From assembly GCA_937146645.1 (NCBI GenBank), contig CAKZRQ010000063.1:62001-126000 (forward strand): a stretch of 64,000 bases of DNA, in the 5' to 3' direction. The DNA comes from an uncultured Cyclobacteriaceae bacterium (GTDB lineage Bacteria > Bacteroidota > Bacteroidia > Cytophagales > Cyclobacteriaceae). The notes below the pieces were generated by a model, which had not been told where the DNA came from, searched no databases, and saw nothing but the letters and a program-made list of their open reading frames with translations. How positions within the stretch are numbered: position 1 is the stretch's first letter; each line of letters opens with the position of its first letter. The translations under genes were made by a program, and so were the position numbers. Below are positions 32,601-50,097 of this stretch, one piece after another.

Positions 32601-35600
32601 ACCGGTTGTACCATAGCAACCTCATCAAGAACTGTCTTTGTTAATGCCCCTATCAGCCCTGGTACAATCAGTGGAGATCAGGATATCTGCGTGGGTGGAG
32701 ACTCTCAACTGTTGTCTTCAACAGCCTTTGGAACCTGGTCTTCTGACAATACCTCTATCGCAACGGTGTCCAGTACAGGGGTGGTAACTGGTGTTTCTGA
32801 AGGAACAGTTGATATTTTCTATACCCTCCCCGCCAGTGGAGGTTGCCCTGCTCCAGAAACAAGCATAAGCATAACCGTCACTGCTCCACCAGATGCAGGT
32901 ACCCTTAGTGGAACACAAGAGGTTTGTGAAGGAAACACAAGGACATTTGCTTCTACAATTTCCGGAGGCACATGGTCATCCGGAAATCCATCGGTGGCTA
33001 CAGTTGATCCGAATACTGGAGTTATTACCGGGATATCTGCAGGTTCTGCTATTATAACCTACACTGTACTCGGATCCGGAGGTTGTCCCGATGCCTTTGA
33101 AACCCGATCAATCACCGTAACCCCAGCGCCGGATGCGGGCACTTTGAGCGGTCCGGCAGGGGACGAATTATGCGTTGGTGAAATCGATACGTATACCTCG
33201 ACGTCACTCGGTGGAATCTGGTCTTCGAGTAACCCTTCTGTTGCAAGCATAAATAATTTAACCGGTGAGGTTACCGCCTTGGCAAATGGAACCACCACGA
33301 TTAGTTATACGGTATCTGGTTCAGGAAGCTGTGCAGATGATTCGGCTGATCTCTCCCTTACCATTAATGCACTTCCAAACCCAACTTTCATAACTCAACC
33401 GAATGGCGTGGTCTGTATCGGTGAGGAAGTAACCTATGAAACTGAATCCGGACAAACCAATTATGATTGGCAAATTTCAGGAACTGCAGGTACCGATTAT
33501 TCTATCTCCTCTGGTGGAACCAGCACAAGCAGTTCCCTTACGCTTACCTGGTTAACCCAAGGTTCAAAACAAGTATTTGTTAATTATGAGAATTCCAGTG
33601 GATGCCTGGGTGCTTCATACATCAGCAACACTGTTTCGGTAAGTCCATTACCAATTCCTACCTTCATAAGCCAACCGTCAGGTGATTATTGTTTCGGAGA
33701 GATAGTTACCTATACTACACAAGCGGGGCGGTCAAACTACGATTGGGATATTCCTGGAGTTGAGGGAAACGATTATACTATCACCGCGGGTGGAATTAGT
33801 ACTAATTCAATTGCAATTGAATGGTTGACAGCCGGGTCAAAAACTGTAACGGTCAACTATGAAAACTCCAGCGGATGTGAGGGGACAAATCCAGTATCAA
33901 ATACAATTAACATTAATCAAATACCTATTCCAACCTTTACTTCAGAGCCTAGTGGGGCCTTATGTATTGGACAAGAATACAGTTATGTCACTCAATCCGG
34001 CGGAGGAATTACAGACTACGAATGGTTTGTTTCTGGAAGTGAGGGGGTTGATTTTGATGTAACAGCAGGCGGTACCAATAGTGATGATTCGATTTCTATT
34101 GTTTGGTTGACAGATGGTGAAAAAACAGTTGCGGTTAATTATTTGAACGCTGATGGTTGTGCAGGACAGGCATCTGCATCGAGTACGGTTGATTTGGATC
34201 CTCTCCCTGTTCCTACCTTCACAACGGAACCATCAGATCCTGTTTGTATTGGAGATGAAGTGACCTATACAACTGAGTCAGGACAATCAAATTATACCTG
34301 GACCGTATCCGGTGTTTTGGACACGAACTACAGCATATCCTCAGGTAGTCTAGGAACATCGAGCAATACGGTAAGCCTGATTTGGCTAACTGATGGCCCA
34401 CATACCGTAACAGTTGGATACACAAATGGAAATGGATGTGTTAGCGGGACACCTGTATCAAATACTATCACCCTCGATCCACTTCCTGTTCCGACTTTCA
34501 CCGTTGAGCCTTCAGACCCTGTTTGTATCGGAGATGAAGTAACATATACTACCGAAGCAGGTCAGTTCAATTACACTTGGAATATTCCAGGTACTCAGGG
34601 AACGGAATATACTATCACTGGAGGAGGTATTGGTACAAATAGCAATTCTGTTACGCTACAATGGTTAACCGATGGGGTTAAAACAGTAACTGTAAATTAT
34701 CAGGATGCGAATGGATGTACTGGAATTAATCCTGCTTCAAATACGATCGATCTGGATCCCCTTCCGTCTCCAAGCTTCACGGTAGAACCTTCTAACCCAG
34801 TCTGCCTTAATGATCAAGTGACCTACACTACAGAGAGTGGACAATTCGATTATGATTGGGATATTCAAGGAACTGCAGGTACAGACTACAATATTACTGG
34901 AGGCGGAATTGGAACTACTAGCAATACGGTGACCATTGAATGGTTGAGTTCTGGTTCAAAAACCGTGACAGTGAATTATACCGATGGAAATGGATGCTCG
35001 GTATCTAGCCCTGCTACAAATACCATTGACGTAAGTATTTTCACATCCATCGTTACGCAGATTGACAATACCAATATCCTTGAATGCTTTGGAGATGGTT
35101 TCGATCCCTTATTTGTAGGAGCAACTGGATCAAATCTATCCTACCAATGGTACAGGAATACTACCGGAGTTATTGATACTTCTGTTGACACTCAGGTTGG
35201 AACAAATTCCAATACTTATACTCCACCTTCCACACCTGTAGGAAGTTCGTATTATTATGTAGTGGTTTCTGGAGATTGCGGCACCAGAACTTCCACCATT
35301 TCAGGTGTACGTATTGTAGATCCTTCGGGAACGCTAATAACCGATGACCCTGATGTCTTGGACGAAACGATTTGTTTTGGAGGCACTTTTACTCAAGAAT
35401 TGGATGTAGCCGCTTTAGGGGATGGAGGAAGTGCGGTTACTTATCAATGGTATCAAAATACGACCCCGGATAATACTGGAGGGATCATGCTTTCAGGCGA
35501 AACGAGTCCGACCATGTTCACTCCTCCTTCTGATGCAAGTGTGGCAGATGGAATGCCGAGATATTACTATGCTACAGCCTCTAGTAGTTGCGGTACAGTT

Positions 35601-38600
35601 CCTACAGCAGTATCTGGTGCATTTATTGTTAATCCATTGACTTCCATTGAATCCGAAAACCTAGTAGGTGAAACAATATGCGAGGGTCAGGGACCATTTA
35701 GTCCGATTTCAATAGATGCCATCGGTACGGGAACCTTGTCCTACCAATGGTATAGTAATACCACAGGAGTTATCAACACCGGGGTGGATACCCAAGTAGG
35801 AACTGATACTGATTCCTTCACACCTCCATCCAATGTTGCAGACGGAGTGCCTGTTTATTACTACGTGGTAGTTTCTAGTTCAGGAGGTTGTGGTTCAGAT
35901 CAAACATCAAGCATTTCAGGTGGATTTGTAGTAAATCCTCTTCCGACACCAACCTTCACGGTTGCTCCACCTGCTGAGGTCTGCGTAGGCGAATCGGTAA
36001 CGTATACCACCCAACCAGGTCAGTCTAATTACCTTTGGACCGTACCGGGAACAGCTGGAACAGATTACTCTATCACATCAGGTGGAATAAGTTCAACTGA
36101 CAATACGGTGACCCTTAATTGGTTAACTGATGGTGCCAAAGACGTTTCCATCAATTACACTAACGCGGATAACTGCTCGGCTGCGGCAGCGGTTGTAAAT
36201 TCAACGACTGTAAATGCACTACCTACTCCAACATTTACCTCTGCTCCTCCTGCCGAGTTATGTGTAGGGACTTCGGTTACTTATTCAACAGAATCAGGTC
36301 AGTCAAATTATGCATGGACTGTCCCTGGAACTGCAGGAACTGATTATAACATTACTGCTGGTGGAATAAGTACAACTGACCATACCGTGACGCTTACTTG
36401 GTTGACTGAAGGAGCTAAAGACGTTTCTATCAATTACACCAACGCGGATAACTGCTCAGCTACAGCAGCTGTTGTAAATTCAACGACGGTAAATGCTCTG
36501 CCTACTCCAACATTTATCTCAGCTCCACCTACTGAGGTTTGTGTAGGGACTTCGGTTACTTACACCACAGAGTCCGGACAGTCAAATTATGCATGGACTG
36601 TCCCGGGAACTGCTGGAACCGACTACAACATCACAGCAGGAGGAATTGGATCATCGAGTAATAGTGTCACACTTACCTGGTTATCAGCGGGAACCAAAGA
36701 TGTTTCAATTAATTATACAAATGCAGATAATTGTTCTGCTGCCTCTGCTGTAGTTAATTCTACAATTGTAAACGCCCTTCCTACCCCAACATTCGTTACT
36801 GAACCTCCCATTGAGGTTTGTGAGGGAACTTCGGTGACCTATGCTACCGAATCGGGTCAATCAAATTATGCCTGGGTCATACCAGGTGTCTCTGGAACAG
36901 ACTTTAATATCACAGGTGGTGGAGGCATAAACGATGAGTCGGTGACTCTTACCTGGCTGTCGTCTGGTACCAAAGATGTATCAGTTAATTATACTAATTC
37001 GAATAATTGTTCCGCTGCTTCTGCGGTTGTGAATACTACATTCGTGAATGCTCTCCCTGCACCAACATTTAGTACAGAACCAAGTTCTGATGTCTGCATT
37101 GGGACATCTGTTACGTATACGACTCAACCTGGTCAGGATAGTTATGCATGGTCTGTGCCCGGGGTTGAAGGTACCGACTATACGATCACTTCAGGTGGTA
37201 TTGGTCCATTTGATAATTCTGTTACCTTAACCTGGTTGTCTGCTGGTACCAAAGATGTGTCAGTAAATTATAGTAATTCAAACAATTGTACAGCGGCAAC
37301 AGCAATTTCAAATACCATTGAAGTTGACCCTCTCCCTGTACCAACCTTTACGGAGGCTCCTACTTCAGACATATGTATTGGTACCCCGGTGACTTATACC
37401 ACCCAAGATAGTCAAACCAACTACATCTGGAATGTACCAGGAACTGCCGGATCAGATTATAACATTACCACTGGAGGAATAGGAACAGGAGATAATTCAG
37501 TCACTTTGGTATGGTTAACTGAAGGAACCAAAGACGTTTCTGTAAATTACACAAATGGCAATGGATGTACAGCTGTGACAGGGGCTACCAATTCTACCCT
37601 TATCAATGTAGTTCCGGTGATTTCGGACATAACTGGGACGGCAATTAGCTGTGGGTCATCCTTTACAATTACACCAGAGGATGGGACTGATGGGCTTGTT
37701 CCGGCCGGTACCACTTACACATGGACAGTTGTCGATAATCCGGATGTTACAGGTGAATCCAATGAGTCCAACCCACAAACAAGTATTTCGCAGCTCTTAA
37801 CAAATACTTCCATAGTGGATCAATTAGTGACTTATACCGTCACACCTACTACTCCTGATGGGTGCTCAGGTGAAACTTTTGAAGTTGATGTACAGGTGCA
37901 GGCAATACCAACCGTTGATCCAATTTCAGATCAAGATGTAGGTTGTGCAGGTCCTTCGACAGCAGCTGTGAATTTCACCGGGAACGGGGTCGCAGGAGTG
38001 GTATATAATTGGACAAATAGCAATCCGGAAATAGGTTTAGCAGCATCAGGTTCAGGAAATATTCCATCTTTTGTAACGCAGAACACAACATCAGCTACCA
38101 TTGATGCTGAGATCATTGTGACACCAACTGTAAATGGATGTACAGGACCATCTGAATCTTTCACTATAACCGTAGACCCGGTGCCTGAAATCACACTACA
38201 GGCAGATTATTGTGCTGTAGATGGTGAGGTAGTTTTAGTAGCAAGCACTCCTGTTCCAGGAACTACCTTTGAGTGGAGCACAGGAGAAACGACTGACAGA
38301 ATCCAGGTAGACTTAGCAGGCCTATATTCCGTTACTGCCACATCCCCTGATGGTTGTACAGCCACAGCTTCTCTTAGTGTAGCAGAAGAATTAATCGTAG
38401 ATGGAGACTTCACTAATTTTGATCCTGCTAATCCTAGTTTCTTCACTGAATACACGCAGAATCAGGCTTATTACGTAGATGGAGATCCGTTAACTGGTTT
38501 ATGGCCAGAAGGGTATTATGCAGTCAATGTAAACGCTCAAGGAAATACAAATACTACTCCTCCAGGTTATCATTCTGCTTTCTATGGTAGAGATCATACT

Positions 38601-41600
38601 AATAATGCAACTGGAGACAGAAACTTTATGATGGTCAACGGGGGAGAATTAATAGGTAGCCCTCTAAGGCAGCCAGTTATCTGGAGGCAGGAAGTCGCTG
38701 TAGAACAGTTCACTGAGTATTACTTCTCTGCATGGGCAATGAATCTCAATCCAGGATCGCCGGCTCGTTTACAATTCAAGATTAATGGTCAATTAGTCGG
38801 TACTATATTGGATTTGTCTACAGCTCCTACACCAGAGTCTGATGGAGAAGTAGGATTAGATAATTGGAGAGAGTTTAGATCAGATCCTAGCTGGAGTTCT
38901 GGTAGTGCTACTACAGCCATCATTGAAATTGTGAATTTGAATCCGGAGGAATCAGGAAACGACTTCGGTTTGGATGATATTTCCTTTGGAACGCTTTCTC
39001 CATTCATTAGATTGACGTCGGCAGTCGGTACTGATGATAGTCAGGTAGTTTGTCAGGATTCTCCAATCGTGGACATCACATATGACGTAGGTGGTGGATT
39101 AGATGGTCCTGTTGTGACAGGATTACCAGCAGGTCTAGATGCCATTTGGAATGGTGTGAATTTGAGAATTACTGGTTCTCCTACTACTCCTGGAGACTAT
39201 ACTTACGAGGTATTTACCACTGGATCCTGTCAGCAGGTTCGTGTAGAAGGTTTAATAGTGGTTAGAGATGTTCCGGATGCAGGAACCATTGCTGCTGACC
39301 AAACGGTATGTCAGGGTGATACTCCTGCGACAATTGTAGGTAGTGTTTATACCCCTCAAGATGCTAGTGCAGTCATTTCTTATCGATGGGAAATGAATAC
39401 GGATCTTGTGAATCCTAATTGGGTGGATGTCACAGGAAATCCTTCTGGCGCAGACTTTGACCCACCAATATTGACCCAAGCGACACAATATCGAAGGTAT
39501 ACCATTTCGACGGTTAATGGACTGTCTTGCGAAGGTCCGGCTACAGATCCTGTAACCATTACCTTACAAACAGAACCTATTGCAGGAACTATTGCTGCTG
39601 ATCAGAGTATTTGTGCAGGAGATGATCCAGCCGCATTTACAAGTACAGAATCTGGTTCAGGTGATGGAAGTATCAGCTATATCTGGCAGTTCAGAAACAC
39701 ATCAAATCCATTGTGGACTACAATTTCTGGTGCTACCGCTGAAACTTATGATTCTCCAGCATTAACAGAGACTACAGAGTTCCAGAGAATAACAGTCTCT
39801 ACCTTGAATGGGGTGGATTGTGAGTCTGACCCAACCCCTGCGGTAACGGTTACCATACTTCCTGAAAATACGGTAACTCCCGTAAATCCAGATCCGCCTT
39901 TATGTTTTGATACTCCTCAACCAGTCACCATCATTCATAATTCTACAGGTGCAACAGGAATTGCTAATGATGGAGTCGAAGGAGCCAATGGTCTACCGTT
40001 GGGAATTAGAGCATCCTTTAATTCAGCTACTGGAGATATCACCATTTCTGGAACTCCTGCGGAAGTTGGGGCATTCAATTACAGTATTCCTCTTACGGGA
40101 GGTTGCGGTGACCTTAATGCAACTGGAACTATAACCGTTGACAACCCAACCTACCCAATTATTAGTATTGATGTACAAGATCCTCCTCAGGGTTCTTCAC
40201 CCCCTTATACCTCCACATTTACTGTATTCAGCAATGAATTAGCTCCTGGTGATTATGAAATTAATTATAGTATAACAGGGACTAATGCTGGTTCAGATCA
40301 AACTATTTCGGTAACTGTTACTACAGAAGGTCAATTCACATTTGATTCCCCACCTTATACAAATGGTGGATCTAGTGTACTTACTATTAACTCGATTCGA
40401 GAAATTACTGACCTATGTCCTTATACTCCGCCAAATAATAATACAGCTGTGTTTGGGGCTTCATGTAGTACTGAATATCTAGAATCTGATGGAGATGCTA
40501 CATATTCTGTTCCTGCAGGAGTTTCCGAAATCACCATTGAAGTATTTGGAAATGGTACTGGTGGAAATACAGCCACACAAACAATGAGTGTGACTCCAGG
40601 AGGTCAGATTTTCTTGGTATTCGATGCCTCTGATAATATTTATGCAACAGAGCTTCCAGCAACAGAGCCACCTGCAGACAGATTGGCGCAAGCTATTGTT
40701 AGCGTCACAGGCCCGGATGGAAGGTTCCTAATAACTTATGAGTGTCCGGACGATCCTTCATGTACCGATTCTGGTGACGTAACTCAATACACGGATTCTG
40801 AAGGATTCACTGTAATTCGATTTACCGGAGAATGTCAGTGGACAGTACCGGAAGGACTTGATGAGTTTGAGGTGCTCGTTGTCGGTGGAGGCGGAGGCGG
40901 AGGCTTTGGTGATGCTGCCGGTGGCGGTGGAGGCGGAGGTGTCTTCTATCAGCAATATACCGGAATCACCATGAATGGAACTCCAGGCTTGCAAGGAGCT
41001 GTATTCCAGGTTTCTCCAGGTGGTCAGGGAATAGGATCTACCAATGCTAATCAGCAAGGTGGTGATGGTGAAGGCTCTTCCTTCACAGGTCCAAGCTTCG
41101 ACTATGCAGGTGGTAACACCTTCTCGAATGTAAGTGTCACCGGTGGAGGTGGAGGCGGTTCCTCTAGCTCAAGTGCAACTATTAGAGTAGGACGAGATGG
41201 TGCCTCTGGTGGTGGCGGTGCCGCATTTGGAGGTGATAGTTCCGGTGGAGGATTAGCCTCTTCTGATGGAAACGAAGGTGGTCAAGCCAATGGCCAAAGC
41301 TTCGGAGGTTCCGGTGCCGGTGGTGGTGGATCTGCTACAGGCGGAGGAGATGGAACTGGAAATGCATCTTTAATGAGTGCGGGTACTGGTGGAAATGGAG
41401 TGATTCAAGAAATCTCAGGAGAAGATGTTTATTACGGAGCTGGCGGTGGTGGTACCTCCTCAGGCGCAACGGTGAATGAACCAGGTCTTGGAGGAAGTCA
41501 GTATTCGAACGGAGGATCTCAATTCTACGCTGGAGGTCGAGGAAATAATACTGGAATCGGTCTACCTGCTACAACGTTCGGCTCTGGTGGTGGCGCTGGT

Positions 41601-42248
41601 AGAAATGGAGGTAGCGATGGATTCCAGGGTGTGATTTATATACGTTTCCCGAATTTCAGAATCCTACCTGTAGAATTCCTGTACTTCGAAGCTGAGCATA
41701 ATGAAGCCCTTAGATCTGGTGATTTGACATGGGCTACGGCTCAAGAATGGGAGAATGATAGATTTGAGATTCAAAGATCTCTGAATGGTACCAGAGATTG
41801 GGAAGTGATAGGTGAGGTTAAAGGAGCTGGTTATTCTGAAGAAGTACAGATGTACGACTTTAGAGACTTGAATCTACCTCCTGCAGGTGGAGATATCTTC
41901 TATCGATTGAAGCAATATGATGAGGATGGTGACTTCACTTACAGCGAAACACGAGCAATTCAGGTTGAGCCGCTTCCAGGAATCACCCGATGGAGAGTTT
42001 ATCCAAACCCTACGACTGGGGATCCAATCAATTTCGCTCTACTCGAACCGACTCTTTACGAGGATGAAGAGATTACCTTGCGAATAATCTCTCCAACCGG
42101 GGATTATGTAATCATCGAAGTAGATGACTTGACCACGATGGGAGCCCAAGTCACCCAGTATTTCCGAAGCTTGGCAGCTGGAGTTTACACCATTGAAATA
42201 TCATGGGGTGATCAAGTAGAATACCATAAGGTGATTCTGAAGAGATAA
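29622..42248 (+). CDS. Giant multi-domain T9SS-secreted surface protein, 4208 residues
   Basis: Signal peptide (cleaved near residue 46, ANAQC), then: glycine-rich domain 1 (about 48-270); several Ig-like domains with paired Cys; glycine-rich domain 2 (about 723-930); about four Big_2-type Ig domains (SVATVDPNTGVITGISAG pattern); six 93-residue PKD/Ig-like repeats (1251-1806); three Ig-like domains of YQWY type (1807-2106); six more 93-residue repeats (2107-2663); further Ig-like domains; a jelly-roll module resembling carbohydrate-binding domains (about 2923-3127, VDGDF ... FGLDDISFG); more Ig domains; glycine-rich domain 3 (about 3734-4010); a fibronectin-like module; and a T9SS type A sorting domain (4123-4208). 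No frameshift is present over 12.6 kb. Probably a long fibrillar adhesin or matrix protein (inference). Confidence 0.9.
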   Translation: MRNVYPEIFSTVRFRISQFGFGGIFFLFFLLTSFISNTFLSNEANAQCASTTLTYGDTGAGTFTYVVPAGVTSIDIQVWGAGGAGGGSTDTGSRFRGGGGAGGGGGAYVVGTVTVQEGETLTIVVGAGGTGVSGGNGNNGDNSSIIGSLSGTLAIAVGGNGGTANISGGDPTGGAGGNSGSVGGTVTPGQDGGDGDTGFGVDSGAGGNGGNGGNGGASLGGGSNNGNPGNAIGGGGGGARTSGNNGNYAGGSGARGEVRIAYDADPPDSGSISGTQTICSGGDPSILSNSIAGEGSTYQWESSVSPFSSWTEISGATSANYDPPAGITETTQYRRISITSDGCESNPSNTVQVSIESVDPGSITGTQSVCEGGDPSQLANADGGNGASYRWESSVSPFSSWTTISGATASSYDPPSGLAETTRYRRVAITASSCEDVTVAVEVTVDPDPTANAGSTLSAVCVGDTTPAMGGSVGGSAAGGTWSGGAGTWNNPTDPSNATYTPDASETGSTITLTLTTVDGGCGIVTATKTLTITPSPTADAGGALAEICDGETSAPMGGSIGGSATNGVWTNLNGNGTWTNANNPSTATYTAAADDSSLGIITLQLTASGGSCGDVLATKTLTVNPGKTVTPVTTETVCFFTGNVNLTHATTGVTGIDSDGVDSANGLPDGVSASFNASTGQISITGNPTELGTFNYSIELLGTCGVAFATGTIEVEDCGCVETFDFDTDPSGTWVVPDGVTEVIVEAWGGGGRGGRRTSGSWAAAGGGGGGYSRSIISVSPGDSFDYSVGQGGNDSDIDGEESNFGPDLVIALGGEGVGNSTTGGDGAAEGTGDVTYAGGSGGNGSSSNSGGGGSSGYSTSDGDNGSGNNPGTIPAGSEGGDGGSGVQNTGTNVGEAGQTPGGGGSGGRGTTGGSFFTGGEGGDGRIKLTYTLNAGVVNGPQSICEGSTTTFSSTMMGGVWSSADATIATVNPSTGVITGVSAGAATIRYTITGCTIATSSRTVFVNAPISPGTISGDQDICVGGDSQLLSSTAFGTWSSDNTSIATVSSTGVVTGVSEGTVDIFYTLPASGGCPAPETSISITVTAPPDAGTLSGTQEVCEGNTRTFASTISGGTWSSGNPSVATVDPNTGVITGISAGSAIITYTVLGSGGCPDAFETRSITVTPAPDAGTLSGPAGDELCVGEIDTYTSTSLGGIWSSSNPSVASINNLTGEVTALANGTTTISYTVSGSGSCADDSADLSLTINALPNPTFITQPNGVVCIGEEVTYETESGQTNYDWQISGTAGTDYSISSGGTSTSSSLTLTWLTQGSKQVFVNYENSSGCLGASYISNTVSVSPLPIPTFISQPSGDYCFGEIVTYTTQAGRSNYDWDIPGVEGNDYTITAGGISTNSIAIEWLTAGSKTVTVNYENSSGCEGTNPVSNTININQIPIPTFTSEPSGALCIGQEYSYVTQSGGGITDYEWFVSGSEGVDFDVTAGGTNSDDSISIVWLTDGEKTVAVNYLNADGCAGQASASSTVDLDPLPVPTFTTEPSDPVCIGDEVTYTTESGQSNYTWTVSGVLDTNYSISSGSLGTSSNTVSLIWLTDGPHTVTVGYTNGNGCVSGTPVSNTITLDPLPVPTFTVEPSDPVCIGDEVTYTTEAGQFNYTWNIPGTQGTEYTITGGGIGTNSNSVTLQWLTDGVKTVTVNYQDANGCTGINPASNTIDLDPLPSPSFTVEPSNPVCLNDQVTYTTESGQFDYDWDIQGTAGTDYNITGGGIGTTSNTVTIEWLSSGSKTVTVNYTDGNGCSVSSPATNTIDVSIFTSIVTQIDNTNILECFGDGFDPLFVGATGSNLSYQWYRNTTGVIDTSVDTQVGTNSNTYTPPSTPVGSSYYYVVVSGDCGTRTSTISGVRIVDPSGTLITDDPDVLDETICFGGTFTQELDVAALGDGGSAVTYQWYQNTTPDNTGGIMLSGETSPTMFTPPSDASVADGMPRYYYATASSSCGTVPTAVSGAFIVNPLTSIESENLVGETICEGQGPFSPISIDAIGTGTLSYQWYSNTTGVINTGVDTQVGTDTDSFTPPSNVADGVPVYYYVVVSSSGGCGSDQTSSISGGFVVNPLPTPTFTVAPPAEVCVGESVTYTTQPGQSNYLWTVPGTAGTDYSITSGGISSTDNTVTLNWLTDGAKDVSINYTNADNCSAAAAVVNSTTVNALPTPTFTSAPPAELCVGTSVTYSTESGQSNYAWTVPGTAGTDYNITAGGISTTDHTVTLTWLTEGAKDVSINYTNADNCSATAAVVNSTTVNALPTPTFISAPPTEVCVGTSVTYTTESGQSNYAWTVPGTAGTDYNITAGGIGSSSNSVTLTWLSAGTKDVSINYTNADNCSAASAVVNSTIVNALPTPTFVTEPPIEVCEGTSVTYATESGQSNYAWVIPGVSGTDFNITGGGGINDESVTLTWLSSGTKDVSVNYTNSNNCSAASAVVNTTFVNALPAPTFSTEPSSDVCIGTSVTYTTQPGQDSYAWSVPGVEGTDYTITSGGIGPFDNSVTLTWLSAGTKDVSVNYSNSNNCTAATAISNTIEVDPLPVPTFTEAPTSDICIGTPVTYTTQDSQTNYIWNVPGTAGSDYNITTGGIGTGDNSVTLVWLTEGTKDVSVNYTNGNGCTAVTGATNSTLINVVPVISDITGTAISCGSSFTITPEDGTDGLVPAGTTYTWTVVDNPDVTGESNESNPQTSISQLLTNTSIVDQLVTYTVTPTTPDGCSGETFEVDVQVQAIPTVDPISDQDVGCAGPSTAAVNFTGNGVAGVVYNWTNSNPEIGLAASGSGNIPSFVTQNTTSATIDAEIIVTPTVNGCTGPSESFTITVDPVPEITLQADYCAVDGEVVLVASTPVPGTTFEWSTGETTDRIQVDLAGLYSVTATSPDGCTATASLSVAEELIVDGDFTNFDPANPSFFTEYTQNQAYYVDGDPLTGLWPEGYYAVNVNAQGNTNTTPPGYHSAFYGRDHTNNATGDRNFMMVNGGELIGSPLRQPVIWRQEVAVEQFTEYYFSAWAMNLNPGSPARLQFKINGQLVGTILDLSTAPTPESDGEVGLDNWREFRSDPSWSSGSATTAIIEIVNLNPEESGNDFGLDDISFGTLSPFIRLTSAVGTDDSQVVCQDSPIVDITYDVGGGLDGPVVTGLPAGLDAIWNGVNLRITGSPTTPGDYTYEVFTTGSCQQVRVEGLIVVRDVPDAGTIAADQTVCQGDTPATIVGSVYTPQDASAVISYRWEMNTDLVNPNWVDVTGNPSGADFDPPILTQATQYRRYTISTVNGLSCEGPATDPVTITLQTEPIAGTIAADQSICAGDDPAAFTSTESGSGDGSISYIWQFRNTSNPLWTTISGATAETYDSPALTETTEFQRITVSTLNGVDCESDPTPAVTVTILPENTVTPVNPDPPLCFDTPQPVTIIHNSTGATGIANDGVEGANGLPLGIRASFNSATGDITISGTPAEVGAFNYSIPLTGGCGDLNATGTITVDNPTYPIISIDVQDPPQGSSPPYTSTFTVFSNELAPGDYEINYSITGTNAGSDQTISVTVTTEGQFTFDSPPYTNGGSSVLTINSIREITDLCPYTPPNNNTAVFGASCSTEYLESDGDATYSVPAGVSEITIEVFGNGTGGNTATQTMSVTPGGQIFLVFDASDNIYATELPATEPPADRLAQAIVSVTGPDGRFLITYECPDDPSCTDSGDVTQYTDSEGFTVIRFTGECQWTVPEGLDEFEVLVVGGGGGGGFGDAAGGGGGGGVFYQQYTGITMNGTPGLQGAVFQVSPGGQGIGSTNANQQGGDGEGSSFTGPSFDYAGGNTFSNVSVTGGGGGGSSSSSATIRVGRDGASGGGGAAFGGDSSGGGLASSDGNEGGQANGQSFGGSGAGGGGSATGGGDGTGNASLMSAGTGGNGVIQEISGEDVYYGAGGGGTSSGATVNEPGLGGSQYSNGGSQFYAGGRGNNTGIGLPATTFGSGGGAGRNGGSDGFQGVIYIRFPNFRILPVEFLYFEAEHNEALRSGDLTWATAQEWENDRFEIQRSLNGTRDWEVIGEVKGAGYSEEVQMYDFRDLNLPPAGGDIFYRLKQYDEDGDFTYSETRAIQVEPLPGITRWRVYPNPTTGDPINFALLEPTLYEDEEITLRIISPTGDYVIIEVDDLTTMGAQVTQYFRSLAAGVYTIEISWGDQVEYHKVILKR
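33372..35039 (+). repeat. Tandem block 1: six 93-codon Ig/PKD-like repeats
   Basis: Six head-to-tail units of about 278 nt inside the giant gene. Each unit starts LPxPTF, has Cys near 15 and near 79, VTYTTE.GQ.NY.W in the middle and WL..G.K.V.VNY towards the end. The units have diverged from each other. Confidence 0.92.
35940..37610 (+). repeat. Tandem block 2: six 93-codon Ig/PKD-like repeats
   Basis: Same repeat family as block 1. The first three units here (about 35940-36775) are much more alike at the DNA level than the others, with long shared stretches such as the region coding NYTNADNCSA, which points to recent duplication or gene conversion. Confidence 0.92.
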
Positions 42249-45200
42249 CTAATCGAAATCAAAAAATTCATCTTCTTTTCGGGCTGGTGCATTAGTCCTT
42301 CCAAGTCCTACAGAAGACTTTAAACCACTAAATGTGGCTTTCCACCATCCTGAAAAGATGAATTTTGATTTATCACGTTGATAAAAAATCCTTCGAGAAA
42401 CCTTCTTTTTAAATAGACCTCTCGGGTTTTTATTTTTCAAAGCTGTGTTCGCGGCGAACGTGTATAGTCCAAGTTTCCCAGTTCCGGGATCAAGAGTCAG
42501 CGTATCGAGAAACTCTACTTTCAAGTCTTCATAAAAAAATCGCATTCTACCCCAGGCTTCATCTTCATTAATCTTAAACTTCCATTTCCCATCTGTGACT
42601 CTTCCTGATTTGACACCAATAAAAGAGGTTCGCTGCAAAATATTATTCGCATTCTTCAGATCGAAGGTTCCCAGCTCCACATCCACGGACATTTCATAAG
42701 GAGCTTCAAATTTCATGTCGACATCAAGGCTAACGTCTCCTTCACCCTCTATAAGTGACTGTGCTTGAAGCTTGGCATTTTTTAATGGGTAAGGAATGGA
42801 ATCAGGTGTGAGAATAAAAGGCGCAATTGAAGCATTTATTTCTTCAAATTCCAAAGTGCCTACAAGAGAGGCCTTTGGAACAAATTCCTGATATCTAATT
42901 AAGGAATTCTGTACAATTAGAGAATCTAGTTCAAGATAGAAAGGTGCATTCTGCATCATTGCCTGTGGCATCGGTTTTACAACACCCTCTTTTAACGGTA
43001 ATCTCTTGTCTCGAAAAATATCCATGACCAGACTATCTACAAGTAAATTCCCAGCCTGAATTTTTCTCGATTCTGTTAGGACAGCTAGATCTATATCGTC
43101 AAGAATGATTCCCCCTACTCGTGCTTCAATTGCATCAGTTTGAAAACCAACCTTCCTTAAGTAGGCGAATCTACCCAGGGTAGGTCTAAACCATATATTA
43201 GATAACTCAACAGATTCTTCCTTAAAAGTTACCTTTCCAACTGTCAATTTATTTAAGCTGTCATTGGTAAAAATAGTGTAGTTAGCGAGGGATACATTCA
43301 AGTCCTGATCCAGAAAAAAATCAGCACTCATGTCTTTATTCCTACTTAGGAGATCAAGGTTTAATTCTGCCAATGTCAGGTTTACATTTTCAAAATCAAG
43401 CTTAGAAATAGGCTCATTTTGCTTATTGAAAAATTGAACATCTCCATCTTCGAGAATAACATCATCCAGCACTATTGAATTTATCAATCCTTGTCCTGTT
43501 TCATTCTTTTGAACCTTATCACGAACCTTTAAATTTTTTGGAGGAGCCTCCTCATCAAGGAAAATATTTACCTCAGGATCGGTAAGCTTTATCTGAGTGA
43601 CATTGAAAGTTTGACTTCCTAAAATATTTGCAAGTTTATTGTTTTGAACTGCTACTTGGGGGATTTCTGCAGAAATGATAGGTCTCCCAGGGTGTCCAGA
43701 AATACTATTAGGCAAGACTTCAAAATTTCTGAAAACGGACTCATCAGTTTCTGTATTTAATTCCAGTTCAGAAAACTTGAGGGTATGAATACTATCCGGT
43801 AGCGCAAAAGAAAAATCCTGTAGGTCAATAGTTATTTGATCAAATAGGCTGGAGATATTTTCCTCAGAAGAAGAAATAGAATCCAGATTAAACCCTTGAA
43901 TTAATAAATCAAACCTGGTTTCAATGGATTGGATATCCGTTTCTCCCAATAAATACTGTAGCTGCAGGAAGGATTGATCTGCCTCGATACTATCAATGAG
44001 AATTTTATCGATTGATGGAGGTAACTCAGGTCTATTCTCGTCTGATTCAGAATCAGGAGATTCCTGCGTTCTCATGGCCGGATTTAACTCAAGATTTAAA
44101 TCACTTCCAACCACTTTAAGCTTCCTCAATTCCAAAATATTCTCGAAAAGAAAGCGATCAATATTCACCCCCTCCAGGACCACCTCTGGAAGTCCAATAT
44201 TCAGAATTACCTTGCTCTCTAATGAGGAAGAAGGTCGTAATGTGAGATTATCAATACTTATTCTTTGCTGTTTAGAATTGTAGCTAATGTTGTTAGTTAG
44301 CACAGTATAATTACCTCCGGCCAAGCTAAATGCATAATCCTTAAAGTTTATATCAATCTCGTCCGAAAAAAAAGTCTGATCAGGTCCTTGAGGCTGACCT
44401 CGTTCGACATGGAAGTTTTTTAGGGCTAGACTTAAGTCATCCTCGGTAATTGATATGGACTTTGATCCAGTAAAATTTTGATAGGCTAAGTCTCCCTCCA
44501 GGAAATTCAAGGAGTCCACAGTAATGGATTTGAAATACTGGGTAAGTAATTCACTCAAGTCATTATCAGAAGAAATGGCACCTGTGGCGGTTCTTGGTCG
44601 TTTTGCGTATCTATTCAGGCTAATAGAAGAAGAAGGAATCGTCAGATAACCTATTTCTAGAGTCTCTTCAAAAAAGGCCTTTCTCAAATCGATTCCTTCG
44701 GCAGCAAAATAGGGGACATCCATATCCATGACTGCTGTTTTCTCATAGGCGCTCAATAGACCCTTGACTTGTGAGGAATCAGGAGGCTTAATTTGGAACC
44801 CTCTAAGCTCCACCCTATCATTTTTAGAATCTACGATCACCTTATCAGCAGTGAATTCGTGAAGATTATCTTTCAACTTTAAACGATAATTATCAAGATC
44901 CAGAACCAACTCATTTGCTAAAAAAAACTCGTTAGCATTAATAGCTTTCTCGGGCTCTACCAAGATATCTTCGAGTAAAAGACTAAAGCGATCAAAGCCA
45001 ATATCATCATTTCTCAAACCAGAAGAGTTAGTAAACGAGATCACTCCATCATTAAGATCAAATGTCTTAACCTTTAGCTGTCGCATATACCCTTCAAGCA
45101 GCTCATTAATTGGAGCCTTATCACCCGCATCTTGCACTATGACGTTCTGATTTTCCACAATCTCAACTTGTGGATTGTCTACAAGAATGGTATTGATATC

Positions 45201-46628
45201 GAAAACCCCTTCATTATAAAATTGCTTTAAATCTGCACCGTCTAGCTTTAATTCCGGAAGATTGACCTTCAATAGTAACCGAGGGTCAGTTTCGATATAG
45301 ACTGAGTCACGAGGTGAAATCTTAAAATCAGTAACAGAAATCTGATCAGTGAAACTATTTACAGAAACACTTTGACCAGCTAGCTTATGGACGCCGTCAG
45401 ACAGGTAGACATTGACATCTCTGATGTTCATCGATGCATCTTCACCATAAAAAAACTGATTCTCCCTTCTTTCTAAGTCTTCCCCGAGATAAAACTCAAT
45501 CATTTTAAAGTCAAGAGTACCTAGTTCGATTCTATTCTTTAATGAGTCCTGAAGGTCGGAACTGACAAAGCCTCCCCTATTTATAGAAAGCTCTTTAATT
45601 TGAACTGACTTGAGAATGCCATCAACCAAATCGTTCAGATCTGTCGCTCCAAGATTGGAGTTCCGGGGACGATTCGTACGGGCTACGTTAAAGCTTGGTT
45701 CATTCAGAACTATTTCGTCAATCTCAAGCTCTGAGTCCTGGAAAGCCTTATTTAAATCCACTTTTTTAAGCTGTAAGGCGTCAAGTGAAAGCTGGTAGTA
45801 AGCCTGACTTTCTACCGATCTATCAGGGGTCATTTCAAAGAATTCCAAGTCAATAACTTGGTCAAGTGAAGAAATGAAGATCCTGTCGGCTTTAATAGTA
45901 TGGACTTCATCTGGAAGCAGGAATTTTCCTTTTTCCATTTCGAATTCAAACCCTCTGGCATTGAATGGAGTGGTCCATTCTTCTTGAGTAGTCCAATTCA
46001 CGTCTTTAATCAGCAGCTTACTGTTTTCTACCTCGAGTGAGTTATCAGAAAGGAAGTTTAGGAAGAATAGATCGGCATTTGATATTTCAATCTCTCGTAT
46101 AACAAACGCGTTGAGTAGCGTTTTTTCTATGGTCTTCCGTATTTCTATTTCTAATGACTTGACTGGAGATTCTTCTGGCTCTTCCTGCGGATTTGATGTC
46201 TTTTTCACCTCCTGATCCTCAGAGAAAGTCAATTTCACATTGGGATTATCGAATTCTAGACGACCTAAATAAAAAATATTTTCCTCTGCCGAATACCAAG
46301 AACCTCTAAGAGCTAGCTGATCTAGTGAAAAATCGAACAATGTTTGATCTTCAGGCACTGTTACACCTGAATTTGGTCTCATCACAATCCCATCAAGGAA
46401 AACTCCTCGTCTTAAAAGTGAGATGTTTAATCTATTGAAATCAATGGTATAAACTTCGGATGAGGCTTCGTTGACCTTTTTTCTTGCCCAATTAGACAAA
46501 AGTAAATTAGAACCAAAATAGACCAAAAACTCAAGAAACAGAATGGCCAAAAGGATTCCTATCACCACCCGTAGCACACGCTTCCTGAGTCGATGACCTT
46601 TAATTTGCCTTCTTTTCTTTTCACTCAT
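42249..46628 (-). CDS. AsmA/DUF748-like envelope protein with six internal repeats, 1459 residues
   Basis: One N-terminal membrane helix (about 21-43) after a basic tail anchors a long periplasmic beta-rich region, the layout of AsmA-family and related bridge-like lipid-transfer proteins. About six repeats of roughly 200-215 residues can be aligned by a shared pattern: a strand ending in F.I.P.S, then LPEL.L.G.D...F, then I..L....P...; examples are LPELKLDGADLKQFYNEG, VPYFAAEGIDLRKAFFEE and LPEVVLEGVNIDRFLFEN. The C-terminal ~150 residues (DVELGTFDLKNANNILQ ... SGRVTDGKWKFKINEDEAWG) look like the AsmA C-terminal domain. Its stop codon directly abuts the stop of the giant gene. A role in outer-membrane lipid transport or homeostasis is inference from the family. 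Confidence 0.72.
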   Translation of the reverse strand: MSEKKRRQIKGHRLRKRVLRVVIGILLAILFLEFLVYFGSNLLLSNWARKKVNEASSEVYTIDFNRLNISLLRRGVFLDGIVMRPNSGVTVPEDQTLFDFSLDQLALRGSWYSAEENIFYLGRLEFDNPNVKLTFSEDQEVKKTSNPQEEPEESPVKSLEIEIRKTIEKTLLNAFVIREIEISNADLFFLNFLSDNSLEVENSKLLIKDVNWTTQEEWTTPFNARGFEFEMEKGKFLLPDEVHTIKADRIFISSLDQVIDLEFFEMTPDRSVESQAYYQLSLDALQLKKVDLNKAFQDSELEIDEIVLNEPSFNVARTNRPRNSNLGATDLNDLVDGILKSVQIKELSINRGGFVSSDLQDSLKNRIELGTLDFKMIEFYLGEDLERRENQFFYGEDASMNIRDVNVYLSDGVHKLAGQSVSVNSFTDQISVTDFKISPRDSVYIETDPRLLLKVNLPELKLDGADLKQFYNEGVFDINTILVDNPQVEIVENQNVIVQDAGDKAPINELLEGYMRQLKVKTFDLNDGVISFTNSSGLRNDDIGFDRFSLLLEDILVEPEKAINANEFFLANELVLDLDNYRLKLKDNLHEFTADKVIVDSKNDRVELRGFQIKPPDSSQVKGLLSAYEKTAVMDMDVPYFAAEGIDLRKAFFEETLEIGYLTIPSSSISLNRYAKRPRTATGAISSDNDLSELLTQYFKSITVDSLNFLEGDLAYQNFTGSKSISITEDDLSLALKNFHVERGQPQGPDQTFFSDEIDINFKDYAFSLAGGNYTVLTNNISYNSKQQRISIDNLTLRPSSSLESKVILNIGLPEVVLEGVNIDRFLFENILELRKLKVVGSDLNLELNPAMRTQESPDSESDENRPELPPSIDKILIDSIEADQSFLQLQYLLGETDIQSIETRFDLLIQGFNLDSISSSEENISSLFDQITIDLQDFSFALPDSIHTLKFSELELNTETDESVFRNFEVLPNSISGHPGRPIISAEIPQVAVQNNKLANILGSQTFNVTQIKLTDPEVNIFLDEEAPPKNLKVRDKVQKNETGQGLINSIVLDDVILEDGDVQFFNKQNEPISKLDFENVNLTLAELNLDLLSRNKDMSADFFLDQDLNVSLANYTIFTNDSLNKLTVGKVTFKEESVELSNIWFRPTLGRFAYLRKVGFQTDAIEARVGGIILDDIDLAVLTESRKIQAGNLLVDSLVMDIFRDKRLPLKEGVVKPMPQAMMQNAPFYLELDSLIVQNSLIRYQEFVPKASLVGTLEFEEINASIAPFILTPDSIPYPLKNAKLQAQSLIEGEGDVSLDVDMKFEAPYEMSVDVELGTFDLKNANNILQRTSFIGVKSGRVTDGKWKFKINEDEAWGRMRFFYEDLKVEFLDTLTLDPGTGKLGLYTFAANTALKNKNPRGLFKKKVSRRIFYQRDKSKFIFSGWWKATFSGLKSSVGLGRTNAPARKEDEFFDFD

Positions 46629-46683: not shown

Positions 46684-46709
46684 AAAAAAAGGCAGCGATA
46701 ATCGCTGCC
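46684..46709 (-). terminator. Terminator of tRNA-like gene 1
   Basis: Stem GGCAGCGA/TCGCTGCC of 8 bp with a 3-nt loop (46691-46709) and seven T after it on the minus strand. It begins 5 nt after the 3' end of the tRNA-like RNA, so the transcript is short and separate from the AsmA-like gene. Confidence 0.9.
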
Positions 46710-46714
46710 TTTTG

Positions 46715-46878
46715 CTGTAGGAGAAGGATTCGAACCTCCACGAGGTAGTTAGGCGATAGTCCGGTTCAGATTATGCTTTTTCCCACTCTGACCCCATTCC
46801 GATAGCTATCGGAACAAGCGGACCAGACCCCTCACCCCCGAGACAGGAGGGCTTGTCTGCCAATTTCAACATCCTACA
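46715..46878 (-). ncRNA. tRNA-like RNA 1: cloverleaf with 95-nt variable region, anticodon GUC
   Basis: On the minus strand: 7-bp acceptor stem TGTAGGA/TCCTACA (extendable by C/G to 8), U8, 3-bp D stem with Leu/Ser-type loop AAATTGGCAGA, 5-bp anticodon stem CCCTC/GGGGG with loop CTGTCTC (anticodon GUC at 46844-46842, unusual U at position 37), 5-bp T stem GGAGG/CCTTC with canonical loop TTCGAAT, G at position 73, no encoded CCA. The variable region (46834-46740) is 95 nt, closed by GAGG/CCTC and holding GTCCG/CGGAC, a perfect palindrome TTCCGATAGCTATCGGAA (46797-46814) and a GGTCAGA/TCTGAACC helix. Own promoter and terminator. Whether it is aminoacylated or works in translation is unknown; G73, GUC and C38 are Asp-type identity elements on a class II body. 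Confidence 0.7.
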
Positions 46879-46944
46879 GTATGTGATTGATGATGCCCGT
46901 GATGGCATCTAAAGACGGGGTCTGTAACGACCTTTTTGTTGTAT

Positions 46945-46952
46945 CAAAATTA
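46945..46952 (-). promoter_or_regulatory. Candidate -7 element of tRNA-like gene 1
   Basis: Minus strand TAATTTTG, a match to TAnnTTTG, 66 nt before the RNA 5' end. The leader between them can form hairpins GATGCC/GGCATC and GGTC/GACC. A -33 element is not clear. Confidence 0.45.
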
Positions 46953-47107
46953 GTAAAATGAAGCATTCTTTAAAATTTTGATAATGATATTATAGAATTT
47001 TTAGAGATCATCTAATCAATTCAGGATTTAAAAGATATTTCGCAAAATCACATCCCAAATCGACCAGTATTTTAAAAATCCTTCAATGCTCAAATTTCAT
47101 CCGGGCA

Positions 47108-47137
47108 TAAAAAAACCATGAAAATCAATTCCATGGT
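47108..47137 (-). terminator. Terminator of tRNA-like gene 2
   Basis: Hairpin ACCATG/CATGGT (47132-47137 with 47115-47120), extendable inward by AT pairs, followed on the minus strand by seven T. It lies 34 nt past the 3' end of the tRNA-like RNA. Confidence 0.82.
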
Positions 47138-47171
47138 CTTAGTTAATTAACAATAAACCCAAAATAACCTG

Positions 47172-47299
47172 CTGTAGGAGAAGGATTCGAACCTCCACGG
47201 AGTAGTTAGGCAATTTTTACGAGCTCGATAAAAATGCTTTATCCCAAATTCTCCACCCCCGAGACAGGAGGGCTTGTCTGCCAATTTCAACACCCTACA
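47172..47299 (-). ncRNA. tRNA-like RNA 2: cloverleaf with 59-nt variable region, anticodon GUC
   Basis: Paralogue of the RNA at 46715-46878. The acceptor (TGTAGGG/TCCTACA, one G-U pair), D arm, anticodon arm (GUC at 47265-47263) and T arm are the same base for base apart from that acceptor position. The variable region (47255-47197) is 59 nt and different in sequence, but its root pairs as GGAG/CTCC where copy 1 has GAGG/CCTC, a compensatory change that supports the helix. It holds a hairpin TTTTTA..CGAGCTCG..TAAAAA and shares GGGAWAAAGCAT and GCCTAACTAC with copy 1. No CCA is encoded. A strong promoter lies just upstream. Confidence 0.7.
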
Positions 47300-47328: not shown

Positions 47329-47361
47329 CAAATATAGGTTATTGAAATTCGTTTTTGCAAA
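47329..47361 (-). promoter_or_regulatory. Promoter of tRNA-like gene 2
   Basis: Minus strand TTTG (47361-47358), 21 nt, then TATATTTG (47336-47329), both perfect. The predicted start is near 47322, only about 23 nt before the RNA body; in between is a 6-bp hairpin TTTACC/GGTAAA (47310-47326). Confidence 0.72.
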
Positions 47362-48566: not shown

Positions 48567-49472
48567 TTGCTCCCTCAATCACCTTGTCCCAACCAGCTTC
48601 TAAATAAGACTGAAAATGAGATTGAAGTCTGGATAAAAAGGTTGGACTTGGTTCATCCTGAGGTATCAGGAAATAAATTTTTCAAACTAAAATACAATCT
48701 GGAGGAGGCGGTGAAATCGGGCTATGATACCATTCTGACTTTTGGCGGAGCCTACTCTAATCATATTTATGCTACCGCTAAAGCTGCGGAAGCCTCCGGA
48801 TTAAAGAGCATTGGGATAATCCGAGGCGAAGAGTTATCGGAGCTCAATCCTACTTTGAAATCTGCAAAAGAATCAGGAATGCGATTAGAGTTCATAAGCC
48901 GTTCCGATTATCGGAGAAAAGCCGAGCCCGAATTCATAAAGCTACTAGATGAAAAATTTGGCGAGTTCTTTCTGATTCCTGAGGGAGGAACCAACTCATT
49001 GGCAATTTTAGGAACAGGAGAAATACTTACTCCGGAAGATTTTGAATTCACCCATATTGCTTGCTCGATTGGTACTGGAGGCACTTTCGCCGGACTCTCT
49101 CATTCCATTAAACCTCATCAAAAACTTATGGGTATCTCTTCCCTGAAAGGAGATTTCATCCATGAGGAAGTTAAAGTTTTACTCAATTCAACTAGAAAAA
49201 AGTATTCCTCTCAATATGAAATTCTCGACGATTATCACTTTGGCGGATACGCCAAACACACCCCTGAGCTAATCGCCTTTATCAATGATTTTCACGAAAA
49301 GTATAAAGTGCCTTTAGATATAATTTACACGGGAAAGACTGCCTTCGCCATTCTAGATCATGTTAAAAAAGGAAACTTCAAAGCTGGATCAAAAATCCTG
49401 ATGATTCATACAGGAGGGCTCCAAGGAAATCTTGGCTTCACTGAAAAAACAGGAATTAGTCTACCTCTTTAA
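48567..49472 (+). CDS. ACC deaminase/D-cysteine desulfhydrase family PLP enzyme
   Basis: A fold-type II PLP protein of 301 residues. The PLP Lys is Lys37 in SGNKFFKLKYN, the phosphate-binding region is GGAYSNHIYATAKAA, and SIGTGGTFAGL is a second cofactor loop. Members act on 1-aminocyclopropane-1-carboxylate or D-cysteine and other small D-amino acids; which one cannot be told, and D-cysteine desulfhydrase activity is the more usual one in bacteria. The start is TTG at 48567: an in-frame TAA lies 12 nt upstream and there is no ATG before the conserved region. Its end overlaps the convergent AlbA-domain gene by 17 nt. Confidence 0.85.
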   Translation: MLPQSPCPNQLLNKTENEIEVWIKRLDLVHPEVSGNKFFKLKYNLEEAVKSGYDTILTFGGAYSNHIYATAKAAEASGLKSIGIIRGEELSELNPTLKSAKESGMRLEFISRSDYRRKAEPEFIKLLDEKFGEFFLIPEGGTNSLAILGTGEILTPEDFEFTHIACSIGTGGTFAGLSHSIKPHQKLMGISSLKGDFIHEEVKVLLNSTRKKYSSQYEILDDYHFGGYAKHTPELIAFINDFHEKYKVPLDIIYTGKTAFAILDHVKKGNFKAGSKILMIHTGGLQGNLGFTEKTGISLPL

Positions 49473-50097
49473 AAGTGAAGAAATCTTCAGATTCTTCTGG
49501 ATGGAGAGAAAGCACATTAGCCAGGGTGAGTCTGATTAGGGTTCTGGACGCCAGGAACTTCGGGATTCGAGCTTCCTTAGCATATTCCCTCACGGTAATA
49601 CTACCTTTTTCCTCAATCGCCTTCATCAGGGTTTCTTCTTTTTCACCGTAAGTAAAAACCACATCCTTCGGCTGCCTGCTTTTCTTGATAACTTCCCAAA
49701 CCTCCTTACTGGCCTGAATAGATCGATCCTCTACCCTCACATAGGATTTTTTCTTGCCGTCATCAATTAGAAAATGAGGTCTTCTCTTGCTTACTGGAAT
49801 TTCGAAGATTGCTACGCCCTTCTTTTCTGTAATTTCAAGAACCTCTCGTGAAAATTCGATTTCAGGTTTGATAGCCTCCTCTATGGCTTTCTCCAAGACA
49901 TAGACTTCATCGAGAATAAACTTCTGACCAGAAACTGTCCCATCATCATCTACTCCAAGTAGCAAAGTCCCTCCAGAAGTATTCGCAAATGCTATGATCT
50001 CTCGGATGATCTTCTCCGGATGCGCAGCTTTCTTTTTAAATTCAAGAGAAATCCCCTCTCCCCTGCTCGCCAGACGTTTAACTTCGGAAAGTAGCAT
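49456..50097 (-). CDS. AlbA_2 (Schlafen-type) nucleic-acid-binding domain protein
   Basis: A 213-residue protein with an N-terminal AlbA_2 domain (EGISLEFKKKAAHPEKIIRE, IAFANTSGGTLLLGVDDDG) at residues 12-130 and a C-terminal winged-helix-like part (EKGSITVREYAKEARIPKF). Such proteins are often called transcriptional regulators or divergent AAA-type ATPases but their ligands are mostly unknown. It starts 6 nt after uvrB on the same strand, so it is likely cotranscribed with it. Confidence 0.82.
   Translation of the reverse strand: MLLSEVKRLASRGEGISLEFKKKAAHPEKIIREIIAFANTSGGTLLLGVDDDGTVSGQKFILDEVYVLEKAIEEAIKPEIEFSREVLEITEKKGVAIFEIPVSKRRPHFLIDDGKKKSYVRVEDRSIQASKEVWEVIKKSRQPKDVVFTYGEKEETLMKAIEEKGSITVREYAKEARIPKFLASRTLIRLTLANVLSLHPEESEDFFTFKEVD

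Follow-up and report, generated by a model that had tools for sequence, protein, structure and literature searches.

The window considered here, a stretch of 64,000 nucleotides from an uncultured Cyclobacteriaceae bacterium, contains two minus-strand genes for tRNA-like RNAs with enlarged variable arms and a GUC anticodon. The question raised by this locus is whether these genes are decayed tRNAs, decoding tRNAs of unusual shape, or RNAs dedicated to another task and, if so, to which one.

The two genes and known RNA classes

Both genes had been recognized in an initial annotation and are present in the sequence; their bounds (Table 1) run from U1 through the conserved C that follows the discriminator. 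The cloverleaf bodies are, as that annotation had it, identical save for one acceptor base (TGTAGGG versus TGTAGGA). The acceptor stem consists of 7 bp (UGUAGGR/UCCUACA) and is followed by G73 and C74, while the anticodon loop of both copies combines GUC at positions 34–36 with U33 and the U37 that was already described. CCA is indeed not encoded beyond C74; the canonical tRNA genes listed from the same genome also encode C74, and a few of them contain the full CCA. The helix at the root of the variable arm (GAGG/CCTC versus GGAG/CTCC), which had been taken as compensatory, is real and covaries across the 41 aligned sequences described below. Bacteroidota-type promoters consist of TTTG, a spacer of 19–21 nt and TAnnTTTG. 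Each copy had been credited with a candidate promoter and a terminator of its own, and this stands for both candidate promoters and for the terminator of copy 1, which was called by the scanner; the terminator of copy 2 is a probable one, recognized by eye with no scanner call.

Table 1. Positions of the two tRNA-like genes, their parts and other features of the window, with sites of tRNA-Leu-like genes on viral contigs.
Feature	Position	Strand	Evidence or remark
Copy 2, tRNA-like RNA (129 nt, U1 to C74)	47171–47299	minus	cmsearch 135.1 bits, E 1.2e-36; member of the model's own sequences
Copy 2, anticodon arm	47256–47272	minus	alignment
Copy 2, GUC	47263–47265	minus	alignment
Copy 2, variable arm	47199–47255	minus	alignment
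Copy 2, T arm and 3' acceptor strand	47171–47198	minus	alignment
Copy 2, candidate Bacteroidota-type promoter (TTTG, 21 nt, TATATTTG; 29-nt leader)	47329–47361	minus	10/10 positions of the consensus
Copy 2, probable terminator (hairpin and T run)	47109–47137	minus	by eye; no scanner call
Copy 1, tRNA-like RNA (165 nt)	46714–46878	minus	cmsearch 107.5 bits, E 1.5e-28; member of the model's own sequences
Copy 1, anticodon arm	46835–46851	minus	alignment
Copy 1, GUC	46842–46844	minus	alignment
Copy 1, variable arm	46742–46834	minus	alignment
Copy 1, T arm and 3' acceptor strand	46714–46741	minus	alignment
Copy 1, candidate promoter (TTTT, 19 nt, TAATTTTG; 66-nt leader)	46945–46975	minus	9/10 positions of the consensus
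Copy 1, intrinsic terminator (12 pairs, loop of 3, T run)	46687–46713	minus	terminator scanner
1459-aa protein adjoining the RNA	42249–46628		no Pfam/NCBIfam match
Single 4208-aa open frame	29622–42248		
Schlafen AlbA_2 domain protein	49456–50097		
Viral tRNA-Leu-like genes, L328	5129–8251		
Viral tRNA-Leu-like genes, L334	4587–4706, 9979–10112		
Viral tRNA-Leu-like genes, L336	4332–5974		

Two copies of the RNA were seen in the host genome: blastn matches fall at these two places alone (in three pieces), and the covariance model also finds two at E ≤ 1e-15. Since tRNA-Asp(GTC) and four tRNA-Leu, in addition to tRNA-Asn, are also encoded in the genome, the tRNA-like genes are not needed for the decoding of Asp or Leu codons. 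The RNA adjoins a gene for an RluA-family pseudouridine synthase. An open reading frame of 1456 aa flanks the RNA in loci L071 and L072.

ARAGORN detected no tRNA in the window and no Rfam 15 family reached its gathering score for the window copies, so that the Rfam match that would have refuted the initial reading is absent. At E ≤ 10, the Rfam search of the window returned chance-level overlaps alone, none of them tRNA; the best (Termite-leu, E 0.008) lies on a terminator and the last 3 nt, and the best inside a gene has an E of 0.56. The 37 matches of RF00005 in the host genome exclude both window copies, and family copies in nine further loci (from hosts and viral contigs, short forms included) are absent from the 41 gathering matches and reach no Rfam gathering score. 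RF00023 (tmRNA) has no match in the window apart from an 11-nt stretch at E 6.1, and the window copies have no Rfam match to the YrlA Y RNA, whose presence in the library is unconfirmed. An allo-tRNA or tRNA-Sec-like identity was rejected on the basis of the 7-bp acceptor and 5-bp T stem, and an 8-bp acceptor because the base at position −1 varies. The RNA was not recognized in the literature searched, a body from which preprints and most subscription papers fall out, and the family is apparently undescribed.

Structure and distribution of the RNA family

The cloverleaf and arm structure was written down from an alignment of 41 sequences, and a covariance model was built on the same 41. The structure pairs 98.8% of cells, compared to 54–61% with the partners slid, a measure that is favoured by the derivation of the structure from these very sequences. 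Sixteen of the 27 pairs have changed on both sides, and not one of the five measures used was attained in 500 shuffles. Within the variable arm, covariation is seen in the root helix, the second helix and the first apical pair. The fold that RNAalifold itself proposes, with a GGC/GCC hairpin in the D region, was set aside in favour of the cloverleaf, whose D-stem pairs covary. The covarying cloverleaf stems, the GG of the D loop and the TTCGAAT-type T loop are those of a tRNA fold, in which a Leu-like D arm is combined with a 5-bp anticodon stem, a 7-nt loop and a normal T arm. The D arm and overall body thus resemble bacterial tRNA-Leu, and the five weaker model matches that were checked are tRNA-Leu genes (45–58 bits); however, the RNA differs from tRNA-Leu by its G73, U1:A72 and GUC loop and by a much longer arm.

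Homologues with a conserved structure, whose absence would also have refuted the initial reading, were found in Bacteroidota genomes by the covariance model and the covariation count. In the order of the host, blastn matches occur in 139 of 194 genomes and model matches (E ≤ 1e-15) in 140 of the 194 sampled, with up to seven per genome; none of the tested copies of this family, which many viral contigs also carry, attains a gathering score in Rfam 15. In a phylum sample of 395 genomes, matches of at least 86 bits are separated from weaker ones, mostly ≤62 bits, with the exception of a short form in genome G012 (70 bits). Those of at least 86 bits outside the order belong to 23 genomes of families f23 (7), f24 (11) and f27 (5), plus three genomes of f67, from another class. 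Among at least 120 stretches with an exact match to the core are named records of Algoriphagus, Cyclobacterium, Dyadobacter, Spirosoma, Fulvivirga, Chitinophaga, Niabella, Terrimonas and Saprospiraceae. Partial model matches beside full copies (L037:8718-8791 and L071:8163-8220) are perhaps remnants.

The failure of ARAGORN and Rfam to call the window copies is what decayed tRNA genes or an annotation artefact would also produce. The covariation over 41 sequences, together with conservation across orders and viral contigs, renders this explanation extremely improbable and upholds the earlier view of a dedicated tRNA-like RNA.

The variable arms of host copies commonly share a 4-bp root, a helix of 2–3 bp and a GAYAAA/CUAA internal loop, whereas the apical part is variable. 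Arm length ranges from almost none, in the 77-nt form of G012 (a tRNA-Asp(atc) according to ARAGORN), to over 100 nt, and other short-armed forms occur at L422 and L438. Thus, the big arm is not essential to the family, and at least one host, G012, does without it. The notion of the arm as a constant cargo is not supported, given this range and an internal loop that is altered in divergent phage copies; the arm motif GGGAWAAAGCAT, also singled out initially, is one local version only. Two other roles were rejected. An RNA-guided array is at odds with the arms of the larger arrays (L033–L036), which are near-identical or of two types, and mimicry of an anti-Shine–Dalgarno sequence by CCUCC is at odds with a stem that becomes CCGUC, CCACC and others.

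Identity elements and asparagine-linked genes

From 103 model matches in hosts, we obtained 99 family members (95 unique sequences), leaving out four partial or ordinary tRNA matches; the 99 include sequences recruited by blastn with copy 2, and 41 of them built the model. U1:A72, G2:C71, U35, C36, C38, G73 and C74 are invariant in all 95 unique sequences. G34 is present in 82, the remaining 13 having A, C or U. The AspRS element set (G34, U35, C36, C38, G73 and G2:C71) is therefore complete in both window copies and, save for G34, invariant in hosts, which supports the Asp-type identity elements proposed initially. The absence of G34 from 13 of the 95 sequences, and from every copy at 8 of 61 loci, is something that AspRS should disfavour. 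G10, a determinant for E. coli AspRS, is not conserved in the family. Relative to bacterial tRNA-Asp (GUC), the RNA has the same G34, U35, C36, C38, G73 and G2:C71, but it contains U1:A72 in place of G1:C72, a class II arm and U or C at position 37, and it exists beside a normal tRNA-Asp in its own genome. Bacterial Asp determinants are treated in PMC9976931 and PMC4206432; in PMC9976931, G1-C72 is described as strictly conserved and helpful in bacterial tRNA-Asp, so that the U1:A72 of the family counts against charging by AspRS. The same pair is a determinant for GatCAB, for which G1-C72 and U20a are antideterminants (PMC9976931 and PMC4206432). In the family, U1:A72 is found in 95 of 95 host sequences and the D loop is mostly GGCAG, with no U following G19-C20.

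Decoding tRNAs have U33 and a purine at position 37. In the 95 unique host sequences, position 37 is always a pyrimidine (U in 90, C in 5) and position 33 is U in 68, a loop that departs from the decoding rule. The RNA is probably an aminoacyl carrier outside decoding, as had been considered among other roles, with a refinement toward asparagine that the host genomes suggest.

Co-occurrence was assessed by a test fixed in writing before it was run, in 80 genomes (40 with and 40 without the RNA, as judged by the covariance model) that we picked ourselves and that are phylogenetically clustered. One of those counted as lacking the RNA, G014, has blastn matches at 7.6e-11 with no model match at 1e-15. 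GatCAB, judged by its GatB subunit alone, is encoded alongside the RNA in all 40 genomes, compared to 17 of 40 genomes without the RNA with GatB over the cut-off. AsnRS is over the cut-off in 79 of the 80 genomes and GlnRS in 51. Of the 51 genomes that have both synthetases, 28 contain the RNA and all 28 have GatB; 23 lack the RNA, and GatB is present in 2 of these (G206 and G232; Fisher 2.2e-12, kinship ignored). The other 12 genomes with the RNA have no GlnRS over the cut-off, and GatCAB thus also has its usual use there. An AsnB orthologue (554-aa query from G323, E ≤ 1e-60) is present in none of the 40 genomes with the RNA, compared to 19 of the 40 without it, 18 of which have no GatB. The same pattern recurs within families of this sample: in f23, both genomes with the RNA have GatB and no AsnB orthologue, and all three without it show the reverse; in f24, GatB is present in all eight genomes with the RNA and absent from both without it. 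Longer AsnB-like proteins (TIGR01536 over the cut-off) occur in 36 of the 40 genomes with the RNA; they may make asparagine, which counts against a simple reading of the AsnB result. AsnA is over the cut-off in 3 of 40 genomes with the RNA (G009 lies just below it) and in 6 of 40 without, and only G072, G184, G338 and G452 among the former have neither a TIGR01536 protein nor AsnA. The two f24 genomes without the RNA, G210 and G304, have neither GatB nor the AsnB orthologue, which counts against the asparagine reading; they also have no AsnA over the cut-off, and G210 has no TIGR01536 protein either; both are possibly asparagine auxotrophs.

Gene neighbourhoods were compared in 61 loci, consisting of the window and 60 stretches that we picked across families, a few of them from one genome. 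An Lrp/AsnC-family gene lies 122–328 bp from the RNA in 41 of the 61 and is divergent from it in all 41. The best named family of this regulator is the E. coli-type AsnC (NF008384; 173 bits, under the NCBIfam cut-off of 227), and among solved chains E. coli AsnC (2cg4) matches it best (122 bits, the next having 83). E. coli AsnC sets asnA transcription by sensing asparagine, and E. coli asnC is divergent from asnA across a gap of 151 bp. The two arrangements are alike in an AsnC-type regulator that diverges from an asparagine-linked gene, except that the RNA gene stands in the place of asnA. Perfect boxes of the Bacteroidota-type promoter are found in 29 of the 41 AsnC-linked intergenic regions, compared to 0.13 expected from shuffles. 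In the window genome, the AsnC orthologue is on another contig than the RNA. An orthologue (at least 57% identity) was found in 15 of 15 genomes with the RNA in the subset searched, and it is also kept in some genomes without the RNA (G016, G195, G311 and G540). Neighbour clusters of the first 41 loci are led by the AsnC-type regulator (23 loci) and Suf proteins (13), with suf genes following in part of the loci; regulation of a suf operon was rejected, as the AsnC-type gene accompanies the RNA more constantly.

The combination of AspRS and GatCAB elements on one RNA that looks unfit for decoding, its asnA-like place beside an AsnC-type regulator, and the retention of GatB and absence of the AsnB orthologue in the sampled genomes makes RNA-dependent asparagine formation the simplest account. 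We consider it somewhat probable, on balance, that the RNA is a tRNA dedicated to a task other than decoding, which AspRS aspartylates and GatCAB amidates, and that it serves asparagine supply under the control of AsnC; its charging, amidation, release and regulation are steps that we infer. AspRS would load aspartate onto the RNA through G34, U35, C36, C38, G73 and G2:C71, and GatCAB would read U1:A72 and amidate Asp-RNA to Asn-RNA. The pyrimidine at 37, the relaxed position 33 and the usually bulky arm would hold Asn-RNA off the ribosome, where its GUC anticodon would place asparagine at Asp codons. Released asparagine would supply AsnRS, AsnC would sense asparagine and set transcription of the RNA, and tandem copies would raise its dosage. 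The initial annotation is thus supported as to a dedicated RNA with Asp-type elements and not supported as to a constant arm cargo; the clues to asparagine lay beyond its view, namely an AsnC-type regulator, GatCAB and the lack of an AsnB orthologue. A wider form of this proposal is evenly balanced in our judgement: that asparagine biosynthesis in many Cytophagales, Chitinophagales and Saprospiraceae runs on this RNA as its working carrier, which is loaded by AspRS, amidated by GatCAB, replaces AsnB and is subject to AsnC feedback, and that phages carry it as an RNA-only auxiliary metabolic gene. If true, an amino-acid pathway would have shifted from a decoding tRNA to an RNA of its own, and this could explain why many Bacteroidota that lack the usual AsnB keep GatCAB despite having both AsnRS and GlnRS.

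tRNA-dependent asparagine formation, in which AspRS and GatCAB act on tRNA-Asn, is used by Deinococcus, Thermus and Bdellovibrio. The predicted chemistry is the same, with aspartate placed on an RNA with U1:A72 and G73 and then amidated by GatCAB, but the aspartate would here be carried by an RNA distinct from the decoding tRNA-Asn, with a Leu-like class II body, a GUC loop, a pyrimidine at 37 and a usually enlarged arm. The main rival explanation, which we regard as rather unlikely, is that GatCAB is kept for this known route (a non-discriminating AspRS forms Asp-tRNA-Asn, which is then amidated), the RNA being an accessory, such as a decoy or sensor to which AspRS or GatCAB binds and which tunes the route, and not the carrier. 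Bdellovibrio has been shown to use the route on tRNA-Asn, and 18 of 547 genera, Bacteroidetes included, combine AsnRS, GlnRS and GatCAB with the lack of an Asn synthetase (PMC4206432). The host tRNA-Asn also has U1-A72 and G73. Against this explanation, GatB tracks the RNA within f23 and f24, and AspRS offers no sign of being non-discriminating at the single residue compared, which is the same in enzymes from genomes with the RNA and from GatB-less relatives. This residue is at what we take to be the match of E. coli L30, where a histidine is the form of non-discriminating AspRS. It was read in 35 of 40 fetched stretches; 17 genomes with the RNA have K, F or L at it, and the 12 GatB-less genomes have one of these or M; histidine occurs in G203 alone of the 35, a genome with no AsnRS over the cut-off.

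The non-decoding loop and intact acceptor end would equally suit an Asp-RNA or Asn-RNA that donates its aminoacyl group outside the ribosome, for example in the modification of the cell wall, lipids or peptides, with free asparagine beside the point. The non-decoding tRNA-Gly of staphylococci, a cell-wall donor, provides a precedent for a tRNA set aside from decoding, although it is of ordinary size and carries another amino acid. We consider such a donor unlikely, since no transferase recurs as a neighbour in 41 loci and the absence of AsnB is not predicted by it.

The RNA on viral contigs

A pattern of the D and anticodon arms matched 103 IMG/VR stretches, and the RNA is present in all 80 loci scanned from these (79 complete, one cut by the contig end). 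Two further patterns matched 88 and at least 120 IMG/VR stretches, and 83 of the 99 loci taken match the model at E ≤ 1e-13. As the INPHARED phages gave no blastn match, the viral evidence leans on the contig classification of IMG/VR; plasmids also gave no match. A viral attachment-site remnant was rejected, given that each of the 80 scanned loci has a copy that spans 116 or more of the 127 model positions. Total lengths of 85 and 87 nt were found for two phage forms, and a hairpin-like insertion is seen in the D loop of copies at L318, L355, L384 and L507.

One viral set was gathered with a pattern in which the anticodon arm is fixed, so that its loop counts are biased, and contains one incomplete, misparsed row (L368). 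In a set selected by the variable arm (26 unique sequences), U1:A72 and G34 each occur in 25 and a pyrimidine at 37 in all 26, the odd row being an incomplete, misparsed sequence (L477). Among 40 unique sequences selected by the acceptor and D arm, A37 occurs in two, both with A33.

A tblastn search (E ≤ 1e-5) of 259 viral loci, 2.31 Mb in all, detected no relatives of GatB, AsnC, AspRS, AsnRS, GlnRS or AsnB. Phages with the RNA would, under the proposed asparagine supply, raise that of the host, and the RNA would then be a virus-borne metabolic gene without a protein; its phage role is guesswork. According to ARAGORN, 10 of 36 viral loci have at least 10 tRNA or tmRNA genes, seven have tmRNA, six have a normal tRNA-Asp and eight have no tRNA or tmRNA gene at all. 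The RNA lies within 8 nt of a tRNA-Ser gene in 13 of the 36, which, with the seven tmRNA loci and the UCUC or UCCC conserved at positions 35–38 in hosts, would suit a translation helper or regulatory RNA: tmRNA-like, base-pairing through its UCUC loop, or, with G73 and a long arm, a SerRS substrate. This is quite unlikely in our view, as U1:A72, the co-occurrence with GatB and the absence of AsnB are left unexplained, and tRNA-Ser genes on viral contigs score below tRNA-Leu genes with the model (25–34 versus 37–54 bits).

Other RNA genes were observed on the same contigs. tmRNA genes lie near the RNA at L331, L344, L345, L361, L374, L384 and L388, and the tag peptides predicted for several of them are long (AEELSSFTFEDAMAFVGADYAVAA in L345, L374 and L384). 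GOLLD RNA (RF02032) was found at L344:6933-7342 (268 bits) and at L318:1-301 (203 bits, cut by the locus end); since L344 holds GOLLD, tmRNA and the RNA, several large RNAs travel together. Viral contigs also contain, several per contig, other tRNA-Leu-like genes (AGTCAGG...CCTGACTAC) in which the anticodon or variable arm is long (Table 1).
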